Of a DNA stretch of 41,239 bases, positions 28,047 to 31,029 are shown in pieces. This DNA is from Terriglobia bacterium. GTDB lineage: Bacteria > Acidobacteriota > Terriglobia > JAIQFV01. The stretch is from assembly GCA_028716525.1 (NCBI GenBank), contig JAQUPQ010000037.1, forward strand, positions 1 through 41,239. The letters run 5' to 3'. Positions within the stretch are counted from its first letter, which is position 1. Each line of letters opens with the position of its first letter. Both the position numbers and the translations under genes were made by a program. The notes beneath the pieces were generated by a model. That model was not told where the DNA came from, did no database searches, and saw only the letters and a list, made by a program, of their open reading frames with translations.

Positions 28047-28203
28047 TTCGCTATAATCGCGCCAATTGAATCTGCCGACCGCCGCATTCTTCCCATTGCA
28101 TATCAGCCGCTCTGCAGCCGCGGGTTGCCGGGGCGGCATCATCGTTGCCTCGAGCATGAAGAAATGAATGGTGTTTGAAGTGATGAATCGCCGAGCATGA
28201 AGA

Positions 28204-28684
28204 GCCCCAAGTATTTGGGGCGATATAATCGTAGCCTGAGGCGCAAGCAAATCAACTGGTGCGAACAGCTCGATTGTTGGCTGCAGCACAACCCCGAATA
28301 ATTAACGGGAGATAGCGTCACTGAATCCGGAATTGATGAGATGCATATGTGCCTGCATTCGAAGAACGTTGCTCGTCCTCGGCGCAGAAGCCCCGCTTTG
28401 CGGGGCGATATAACCGTAGCCTGAGGCGTAAGCCTCAGGTGTGAGATGCGCCGAGAAAGTTTTCAGTCCGCCTGGGCGGACGGCATAGAACAGCCCCAAG
28501 GGTTTGCGAGAGCTTTGCGGTAGCCTGATGCGCCAACCGACACCGCCTCCAGCCGCAAAGTCGAACAAGGCGGAGTGTTTGCCGATAAGGCAGCCCCGCT
28601 TTGGCGGGGCGATATAATCGTAGCCTGAGGCGTAAGCCTCGGGTGTGAGACGCGCCGCATTCTTCTCAGTCCGCCTTGGCGGAC
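28204..28684 (+). repeat. Array of three-hairpin repeats, left of the transposase
   Basis: The order reading plus is A, linker GATATAATCGTAG, B, about 26 nt, C. Two complete units are visible: A 28390-28406, B CCTGAGGCGTAAGCCTCAGG 28420-28439, C GTCCGCCTGGGCGGAC 28466-28481; and A 28593-28610, B 28624-28643, C 28669-28684. Two degenerate units are at 28204-28250 (A has altered but paired arms GCCCCAA/TTTGGGGC) and about 28492-28535. From 28047 to 28203 I see no gene or structure. Confidence 0.88.
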
Positions 28685-28700
28685 GGCATAGGACCACTCC

Positions 28701-29153
28701 TCAATTCCAGATATACCGCTCGTCGTATTCAATCCCGTGGGCCTTCAATAGCCTCACAAACTCCTCCTGAAAACTGACTCGCCGGTGATGCTCCTTCTGA
28801 TTTTGAATATACGTTCGCACTCGGTCAATTTGTGAATGACTCACGGTCGTTCCGAAATATCCGCGTTGCCATTCAAAATCTCGCCGCTTCCTCCATTTCT
28901 CATGAATCCACTTCGATGAATTGCACTTCAAAATCCTAAGAGCCGCGGCCGGCGATTGATCGGCTCGGAGCGCGAAGAGCAGGTGTACGTGATCTTCGGT
29001 TCCATTGCCTTCCAACAGTCGTCCCCCTGTCTCTTGGAGAATTCCCGCCAGGTAGGCATAAAGCTCTGGTTCCCAGTCCGGGGTGATCAATCGGCTTCGA
29101 TTCTTGGTGCTGAAGACAGCGTGATAACGGAAGGCAGTAAAACTGCTGGCCAT
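28701..29153 (-). CDS. tnpA: IS200/IS605-type Y1 (HUH) transposase
   Basis: The 150-residue protein matches the small single-strand transposases: FRYHAVFSTKNRSRLI at the start, the HUH metal pair as HVH in DHVHLLFAL, and the nucleophile Tyr in VRTYIQNQKEHH. The ATG at 29153 gives the canonical MASSFTAFRYHAVFSTK opening; an in-frame GTG at 29204 is upstream. Such enzymes cut at hairpins in single-stranded DNA; related domesticated versions (RAYTs) serve REP palindromes. No tnpB accompanies it, and palindromic arrays flank it on both sides in opposite orientation, so RAYT-like behaviour is plausible. No frame damage is visible. Confidence 0.9.
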   Translation of the reverse strand: MASSFTAFRYHAVFSTKNRSRLITPDWEPELYAYLAGILQETGGRLLEGNGTEDHVHLLFALRADQSPAAALRILKCNSSKWIHEKWRKRRDFEWQRGYFGTTVSHSQIDRVRTYIQNQKEHHRRVSFQEEFVRLLKAHGIEYDERYIWN

Positions 29154-29261
29154 AGATAAACCCGTCGCGGGGGTAGGTTGGAAACATGTTGGGGGGAGTA
29201 TCACGCGAATAATAGCACTCTTTAAACGGGGGATTTGTTATTTCGCTTGGATGCCTATGCC

Positions 29262-29872
29262 GTCCGCCAGGGCGGACTCGGAACAACTCCGAACATCCGT
29301 TACCTGAGGCTTACGCCTCAGGCTACGACTATCTCGCCCCGCAAAGCGGGGCTATTCTATGTCGTCCGCCCAGGCGGATTGAAAACTTTCTCGGCGCATC
29401 TCACACTTGAGGCTCACGCCTCAGGCTACGACTATATCGCCCCGCCAAAGCGGGGCTCCCCTGGCGGCCGCAGTCCGCACTTTTCGACTCCGCCCCTGGA
29501 GTCAACTATTCATTCACGCCTCAGGGTACGACTATCTCGCCCCGCCAAAGCGGGGCTATTCTATGTCGTCCGCCAAGGCGGACTGAAGACATTCTTGGGG
29601 GCGTCTCCAAACCTGAGGCTTACGCCTCAGGCTACGACTATGTCGCCCCGCCAAAGCGGGGCTATTCTATGTCGTCCGCCAAGCGGACTGAAGACATTCT
29701 TGGGGGCGCCTCTCAAACCTGAGGCTCACGCCTCAGGCTACGACTATCTCGCCCCGCCAAGCGGGGCTATTCTATGTCGTCCGCCAAGGCGGACTGAAGA
29801 CATTCTTGGGGGCGTCTCCAAACCTGAGGCTCACGCCTCAGGCTACGGTTATATCGCCCCGCAAAGCGGGGC
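29262..29872 (-). repeat. Tandem array of about six three-hairpin repeats, right of the transposase
   Basis: Orientation is opposite to the left array. Hairpin A (GCCCCGC...GCGGGGC) occurs at 29336, 29439, 29539, 29645, 29751 and 29856, giving a period of 100-106 bp. Hairpin B (CCTGAGGCTTACGCCTCAGG or close) is at 29303, 29406, 29612, 29718 and 29823, with only a half at about 29515. Hairpin C (GTCCGCCAAGGCGGAC type) is at 29262, 29364, 29568, 29674 and 29779. The last three units are nearly identical, suggesting recent amplification. Linkers CTACGACTATCTC and TATTCTATGTC are conserved. Confidence 0.92.
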
Positions 29873-29973
29873 TCTTCCAGGGAAACTGTCTTCAGATTGG
29901 GAAAAGACAACCGCTCTCGGGGGCTTGCAAGTTGAAGAGGAAATCCCGAATATCCACATGCTCTCAATCAAGC

Positions 29974-31029
29974 CTACAACACTTGCCGCTGCCGACGATT
30001 TCCACTTACTTGACTCTGCGGTAATTGTGAGGCGTGCACCATCGGTCTGGTGGGAGGGATTTGTTGCTCTAGCGCCGCCTCCACGTTCCATTCGGTCTGA
30101 ATCCCATTATGAACAACCGCAGAGATGACGCGACCAGGATCGCCGAGATCACTCCATCCCAAGCCATCGGCGCGCAGAACAGCCAGCCGTTCCGGGCGCG
30201 CCGCCAAAACGTCTTGAGAAAAATTTACGATCTTGATCCGCGCATAGAGCTCTTCCAAAGCCATGGGGTCGGCCTCTTGAAGACAGGAGCTCGTCAAGTA
30301 GAATGTTTGGAATATGGCAGGAAGAGCCTGCGACGTCAAATCCAGGAACGCTTGGATCCGGCCGACCATGATAAAGGTATTCCACAGACAGCCCCGTCGA
30401 ATCAAGGCGGACGCCAAGGGGACGGATGGTTTTTCCCAAAAGCGTCTGACCCGAAACATCGCTTTATCCGAACTCTCAGAAAACGGCATGCCGGGTTGAA
30501 TCCACCCATACTCGGCCTCTGGGGATGCAGGTCGAATCCCCAAGACAATCACTGCATTCGGATGTGATTCCGCCGCACGAAATGCGGCGCCCACGTGCCT
30601 CTGCAGAACAGATTCTGAGGAAAAATAATGATCCGATGGAAAAAACGCCACCATGGCATCGGGATCGAGATGTTGCACTCGGGCCAAAGCATACAAAACA
30701 GCCGGCAGGGTTCCCCGGTTAAACGGTTGAACCAGCACGCGTGCGGGTTCAAGATCCTGGACTTCATCAAAGTAAAAGAGCTCATGCGCCTTGGTCAGCA
30801 CGACCAGCGTTTGTCGAGCTGCGATCATTCCGGAGACCCGGCTACGCGTCTGCTGCAGGAGCGTTTCGCTCCCCATGACACGGCAGAATTGTTTGGGCCG
30901 CTCATCCCCGGAAATGCGGCGCGTCAGCGGCAGCAGGCGTTTTCCATCACCGCCGGCAAGAACCACGCCCCAACGATGGTCTACCCTTCGGCTTTTATCG
31001 ACTTTTCCGGAGCAACCCATCTTCGTCAT
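29974..31029 (-). CDS. Sugar-1-phosphate nucleotidyltransferase, mannose-1-P guanylyltransferase-like
   Basis: The protein (351 residues from the ATG at 31029; an ATG at 31020 or a GTG at 31047 is also possible) opens with the nucleotidyltransferase signature GVVLAGGDGKRLLPLTRRISG followed by RPKQF, in which the Gly-rich loop, Arg and Lys bind the nucleotide. FFPSDHYF is the metal and substrate region, and FWEKPSVPLASAL and WNTFIMVGR fit mannose-1-phosphate guanylyltransferases. GDP-mannose for glycan synthesis is the likely product. The usual C-terminal isomerase domain of ManC is absent. It ends close to the right repeat array, and the C-terminal tail (after about residue 320) is Gln/Pro-rich. 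Confidence 0.75.
   Translation of the reverse strand: MTKMGCSGKVDKSRRVDHRWGVVLAGGDGKRLLPLTRRISGDERPKQFCRVMGSETLLQQTRSRVSGMIAARQTLVVLTKAHELFYFDEVQDLEPARVLVQPFNRGTLPAVLYALARVQHLDPDAMVAFFPSDHYFSSESVLQRHVGAAFRAAESHPNAVIVLGIRPASPEAEYGWIQPGMPFSESSDKAMFRVRRFWEKPSVPLASALIRRGCLWNTFIMVGRIQAFLDLTSQALPAIFQTFYLTSSCLQEADPMALEELYARIKIVNFSQDVLAARPERLAVLRADGLGWSDLGDPGRVISAVVHNGIQTEWNVEAALEQQIPPTRPMVHASQLPQSQVSGNRRQRQVL

Follow-up and report, generated by a model that had tools for sequence, protein, structure and literature searches.

Inverted arrays of a GTAG-tagged three-hairpin repeat around a Y1 transposase gene suggest a REPtron-like locus in an Acidobacteriota genome

Does a Y1 transposase gene that lies between two oppositely oriented arrays of hairpin repeats have those repeats as its own, and, if so, is it a REP enzyme or an ordinary insertion sequence? 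The question is raised by one locus in the window, a 41,239-nucleotide stretch of a Terriglobia bacterium genome. REPs, whose hallmark is a short palindrome tagged with GTAG, rank with the most common repeats of bacteria, and how they spread has yet to be explained; to our knowledge, all REP enzymes examined to date come from a single class of Y1 proteins. The original prediction placed the gene, tnpA, at 28701-29153 between hairpin arrays. This description is accurate, and the gene is borne out by a match to Pfam Y1_Tnp (PF01797, E 8.9e-27). The features of the locus are as follows.

28202-28248, plus strand: degenerate left unit (B hairpin GCCCCAAGTATTTGGGGC, linker, GTAG, half of A)
28390-28481, plus strand: complete left unit (B 28390-28406, GTAG 28416-28419, A 28420-28439, C 28466-28481, then GGCATAG)
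28488-28533, plus strand: degenerate left unit
28593-28684, plus strand: complete left unit, closest to tnpA (B 28593-28610, GTAG 28620-28623, A 28624-28643, C 28669-28684)
28701-29153, minus strand: tnpA, Y1/HuH transposase of 150 aa with the subclass 1.2 signature (DHVH, WQ, YIQNQKEHH, C-terminal YDERY)
29168-29181, minus strand: leader motif CCAACCTACCCCCG upstream of the tnpA start; variant forms precede all eight paralogues of the genome
29262-29352, minus strand: right unit 1 (C 29262-29277, A 29303-29322, GTAG 29323-29326, B 29336-29352)
29364-29456, minus strand: right unit 2 (C 29364-29379, A 29406-29425 with one mismatch, B 29439-29456)
about 29512-29556, minus strand: right unit 3, with A degenerate (B 29539-29556)
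29568-29662, minus strand: right unit 4 (C 29568-29583, A 29612-29631, B 29645-29662)
29674-29767, minus strand: right unit 5 (C about 29674-29688, A 29718-29737, B 29751-29767)
29779-29872, minus strand: right unit 6 (C 29779-29794, A 29823-29842, B 29856-29872)

As predicted, two complete and two degenerate units were found on the left and six units of about 105 bp on the right, with hairpin A degenerate in right unit 3. The right array (29262-29872) has units of 100 to 106 bp each, at spacings of 103, 100, 106, 106, and 105, and scores 719 in Tandem Repeats Finder at a period of 106 bp. The opposite orientation of the arrays, also anticipated, is seen directly as inverted repeats of 55 to 101 nt between left and right (92 to 96% identity). 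The last right-hand units had been described as nearly identical through recent growth, and three overlapping 114-bp segments of the right array are 95 to 96% identical, which makes recent tandem growth plausible. Tandem units of which the last are nearly identical could also be pre-existing minisatellites into which tnpA landed by chance. However, insertion into a single pre-existing array cannot yield opposite orientations and is thereby ruled out, and the same layout, with other stems, recurs around paralogues and around homologues from other phyla; a chance meeting of gene and minisatellites is therefore exceedingly improbable. Long open frames run through the arrays (29235-30128 on the plus strand, 297 codons, and 28302-28697 on the minus strand, 131 codons). 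They are long because the unit period is roughly 105 bp; they are likely spurious, and an annotator might call them genes.

On the tagged strand, the order in every complete copy is B, a linker, GTAG, A, 21 to 28 bases, and C. The linker from B to GTAG is GATATAATC or similar (nine bases in most copies), hairpin A is GTAG plus CCTGAGGC-GYRA-GCCTCAGG, an 8-bp palindrome, and GRCATAG or a similar sequence usually stands directly after hairpin C. Sequence is constant across copies in hairpin A only; B and C hold their position and pairing while their sequence changes with compensation. The B stems include GCCCCGC, ATCCCCC, AGCCCGAT, and GTCCGC, and the C stems include GTCCGCC, GCTCCC, and GCCCCCT. 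The covariation score over 26 units was 0.227, higher than in any of 500 shuffles or any slid version, and the covariation count is an underestimate because the MAFFT unit alignment places some B and C stems off by one base. Three distinct hairpins with conserved linkers had been proposed for each unit: the three are present, but they are not equivalent, A being tagged and conserved in sequence and B and C being accessory at fixed spacing. The tagged hairpin A corresponds to a REP in the terms of the literature. We dropped the reading as a two-hairpin BIME, since B and C stand at fixed spacing beside A in flanking and dispersed copies alike.

TnpA has the Y1_Tnp HuH fold and its catalytic Tyr. 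By its protein it falls outside the classical RAYT class: it lacks Y--NP (YIQNQKEHH stands in its place), scores 20.9 bits on the RAYT model NF047646 against a cut-off of 80, and has a predicted fold closer to IS200. It passes the NCBIfam IS200 model NF033573 (72.2 bits versus 55). The folds nearest to its AlphaFold model (pLDDT 92.9) are those of IS608 and ISDra2, the closest solved folds, with a Z of about 14 at about 2 Å, compared with a Z of 10.7 at 3.5 Å for the E. coli RAYT (4er8). The motif Y---Q--HH is present in 86 of 88 homologues. W95-Q96 of TnpA align with W94-Q95 of the E. coli RAYT, a region linked to GTAG recognition, in which Q95 reportedly makes contact with GTAG together with other residues (PMC8266576, PMC6006769). 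Quentin et al. (2018; PMC6006769) characterized TnpA-Y1 subclass 1.2 by Y---Q--HH, DH[IV]H, WQ, a length of about 148 to 150 aa, low copy number, and a C-terminal tail, and recorded it as lacking REPs and as occurring mostly in Cyanobacteria and Bacteroidetes. TnpA resembles this description throughout (DHVH, WQ, Y---Q--HH, 150 aa, low copy, and a C-terminal tail), and it is assigned to subclass 1.2 by motif.

The palindromes extend well beyond the locus. Across the 4.2-Mb genome, 85 sites match a generic pattern for tagged palindromes, whereas the reversed control pattern matches nowhere, so the pattern of the arrays is far beyond chance. The CCTGAGGC family, which has the stem of the tnpA locus, accounts for about 30 copies (29 to 30) on 14 contigs; the other stem families among the 85 matches are CCCGGCAC (18), CCCGGGGC (10), CCCGGAGC (9), and CCCAGGAC (6), followed by the smaller families CCTGGGGC (4), CCGGGGGC (3), and others (5). 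About 30 copies is a modest number compared with the hundreds of REP copies in the classical REPtron of E. coli. Dispersed loci lie outside open reading frames of at least 120 aa in 14 of the 16 cases checked, and most dispersed copies are gene-free. Several copies are inverted pairs within diverged composites of about 500 bp (L004, L006, L013, L024, and L028), which have inverted A palindromes, a conserved interior, and no gene and are MITE-like; clean insertion boundaries of these composites were sought via the limits of homology and were not obtained. At another place (L177, G000:C5:42000-43300), inverted CCCGGAGC REP units about 680 bp apart surround a tRNA-Arg(acg) gene and an incomplete tRNA-like copy; a transposase gene is absent there.

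The substrates of IS200/IS605 elements are hairpins preceded on the 5' side by a tetranucleotide, and the ends of these elements are not inverted. The locus could be an ordinary insertion sequence of this type (IS608, ISDra2; subclass 1.1), the repeats being its multi-hairpin ends, which spawned MITEs by internal deletion. The score on the IS200 model and the nearest folds fit such an origin, as do the composites of about 500 bp, found at five or more places, in which the A palindromes are inverted and tnpA is absent. Nevertheless, we consider it unlikely, since the genome holds no near-identical tnpA copies (the best paralogue is 57% identical), the flanks are inverted and inward tagged, unlike IS200/IS605 ends, most dispersed copies contain no gene, and the W and Y motifs of TnpA (WQ and Y--NQ--HH) differ from the subclass 1.1 versions (W[TS] and Y[IV]ENQ). 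The predicted designation as an IS200-type transposase thus holds for the profile and the fold but not for the element: missing near-identical copies, inverted flanks, and subclass 1.2 motifs do not describe an ordinary IS200 element.

Eight tnpA paralogues are present in the genome, and the proteins of the seven others are 36 to 57% identical to that encoded at 28701-29153. Seven of the eight have tagged palindromes beside them, inverted and on both sides in at least five cases. The paralogues C64, C19:23k, C5, and C3 have inverted tagged palindromes on both sides, each with its own stems; at C1, one partner palindrome is perfect and the other imperfect, C19:52k has a longer GTAG palindrome on one side, and the flanks of C2:180922 (L038) hold no recognizable REP. 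Hairpins B and C were both present in all 10 own-genome flanks tested. Most palindrome families are therefore tied to a particular enzyme gene, like those of known REPtrons; the families CCCGGGGC and CCTGGGGC are without an assigned enzyme. A leader motif, AAYCYNCCCCCG, stands about 20 to 55 nt before the start codon of all eight paralogues (the one in the window and L032 to L038), the REP-less one included, and was not found in other phyla.

The repeat and the enzyme also occur together in relatives. Among 101 genomes, the CCTGAGGC palindrome is found only in the window's genome (29 to 30 matches) and in G002 (7 matches), which belongs to a different genus of the same family. The tnpA orthologue of G002 is 72% identical over residues 47 to 149, while the homologues of other genomes reach at most 56% among the matches listed; it is flanked by the same CCTGAGGC palindrome and the same C hairpin and appears to be frameshifted (decay or assembly error). 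G001, from the genus of G002, has neither the CCTGAGGC palindrome nor a close orthologue. The palindrome is therefore present in two of two genomes with a close tnpA orthologue versus none of 99 without one (Fisher p 2e-4, with only two positives). Equal abundance of the repeat in relatives lacking the transposase had been named as grounds for abandoning the proposed link, and the comparison failed to refute it. As an association, the link is supported both by this co-occurrence and by the recurrence of the layout at paralogues and at homologues from other phyla.

Hairpins directly on both sides of tnpA might instead act as RNA, in termination, mRNA stability, or down-regulation of the transposase, with the enzyme a passenger or merely regulated. 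Effects of REPs on termination and mRNA stability have been proposed (Di Nocera 2013; PMC3733652). The strand-specific tag, however, points inward on both sides, so that a transcript carries the tagged strand on one side only, and the palindrome tracks the enzyme phylogenetically. Further, none of the hairpins in the sequences read is followed by the T-run of an intrinsic terminator, and an Rfam search returned no match. We consider a role confined to RNA quite improbable, more so than the insertion sequence.

The wider distribution of the layout was assessed at 75 homologue loci with both flanks in one-genome-per-species data, counting palindromes within 300 bp; the set is biased to homologues most like P0001, and several of the genomes are metagenome assembled. 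Inward AG-tagged palindromes were present on both sides at 25 of the 75 loci, compared with none in shuffles and none of 51 distant control flanks, and palindromes were outward on both sides at a single locus. The groups represented are Planctomycetota, Acidobacteriota, Verrucomicrobiota, Chlamydiota, a deltaproteobacterium, Calditrichaceae, and Bacteroidota (at least seven phyla), and the tags vary as NNAG across the lineage. Of the 34 flanks tested, 30 have a hairpin B that ends 9 to 13 nt ahead of the A stem (shuffling predicts 0.3, and a control offset gave 0), and 19 have a hairpin C that starts 19 to 28 nt after A (0.7 expected). Among the 18 flanks with both hairpins, the inner stem of B is also that of C in 10. 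Fixed position is the informative test for B and C, over stem length alone, which gave 17 of 56 at p < 0.05 each and only modest significance. In stem and tag, the two flanks of one gene agree far more than mismatched pairs do, and both track protein distance (Mantel tests, p 0.001 and 0.004). In two further Acidobacteria genomes, B keeps its distance from A in 17 of 17 dispersed copies and C in 10 of 17. Contigs of the acidobacterial genome G102 (e.g., L235 and L236) carry a family with a 3-nt loop, AGCCGGGGGCAACGCCCCCGG, with many inverted pairs about 118 to 180 bp apart and similarly spaced B hairpins.

The association is not universal in subclass 1.2, because two-sided flanks occur at only 3 of 32 loci of the Bacteroidota-type group, versus 22 of 43 elsewhere. 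This low rate may explain why REPs escaped an earlier survey that applied the GT[AG]G rule strictly. The published account of the subclass differs from our results in this respect, as dedicated REPs are found here in Acidobacteriota, Planctomycetota, Verrucomicrobiota, Chlamydiota, and others (PMC6006769). A literature search, which covered open-licence papers, returned no report of REPs for subclass 1.2.

Is the three-part unit a property of REPs in general? The control comprised 30 loci that match the RAYT model in the same genome set, 28 of them with Y--NP. These classical RAYT loci have other palindromes, often beginning AAG-GGCACGG, and hairpin B was found in 1 of 20 of their flanks versus 23 of 31 for the P0001-like genes of the same relatives (Fisher p 1e-6); the three-part unit is thus a property of TnpA's enzyme branch and not of REPs generally. 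Beside Y--NP RAYT genes in genomes of the same class (L193 to L222, e.g., L198, L203, and L218), inverted AAG-GGCACGGYTTC- palindromes are common, with a different tag and no B.

Several likenesses to described REP systems remain. First, as in the E. coli REPtron (subclass 2.2) and the group 3 RAYTs of Stenotrophomonas and Pseudomonas (subclass 2.5), a Y1 HuH gene of low copy number lies between inverted palindromes tagged with GTAG, the palindrome families are cognate to particular genes, and their members are scattered outside genes, with tandem and inverted pairing; the perfect short palindrome stem is shared with the group 3 RAYTs (PMC8266576, PMC6006769). Unlike in those systems, the enzyme here lacks Y--NP and fails the RAYT model, the tags vary as NNAG across the lineage, and the REP lies inside a fixed three-hairpin unit. 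Second, the GTAG tag, stems of 6 to 9 bp, dimers, and clusters recall the GTAG-tagged REP families and TIRtrons of Di Nocera 2013, excerpts of which note GTAG repeats in the PVC superphylum and describe REP dimers and stem-loop spacers; a fixed B-tag/A-C unit tied to Y--Q--HH enzymes is not described in those excerpts (PMC3733652).

We conclude that the locus is probably REPtron-like: a Y1 single-strand transposase, present in low copy number and apparently domesticated, is accompanied by a REP family of its own, with hairpin A as the cognate REP within a three-hairpin unit. The following course of events may be envisaged. The strand of the unit would become single stranded, e.g., as the lagging-strand template, and a TnpA dimer would bind the tagged hairpin A through the WQ region and the loop. 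The tag would then direct cleavage to a site close by, in the manner of REP and IS200/IS605 systems, and B and C might hold or space the substrate or serve as the second bound hairpin. Cleavage and strand transfer would copy or move units to extragenic sites, and arrays would grow in tandem. What the sequences show is the anatomy and inversion of the arrays, their spread through the genome, the paralogue-specific palindromes, the co-occurrence with the enzyme, the spacing kept across phyla, and the compensatory changes; that TnpA binds and cuts the unit, which strand it chooses, what B and C do, that it made the copies, and that the units are mobile is inferred.

A transposase branch recorded as REP-free thus appears, from comparisons of genes and their flanks, to have its own kind of REPs, and we read the branch of TnpA as a putative second REP-enzyme lineage with a three-part REP. 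More tentatively, subclass 1.2 might have been recruited to REPs independently, and the unit might be a minimal single-strand mobile element, with B and C as end hairpins and A and its tag as guides, intermediate between IS200 ends and classical REPs; we regard this extension as possible but doubtful. The branch stands nearer to true IS200 transposases, and its gene-specific REPs in a three-hairpin layout that crosses phyla would offer an independent case for testing how a transposase becomes tied to REPs. One genome may supply many natural enzyme/substrate pairs (up to seven), and the predicted substrate, B-tag-A-C, is defined and directly assayable.
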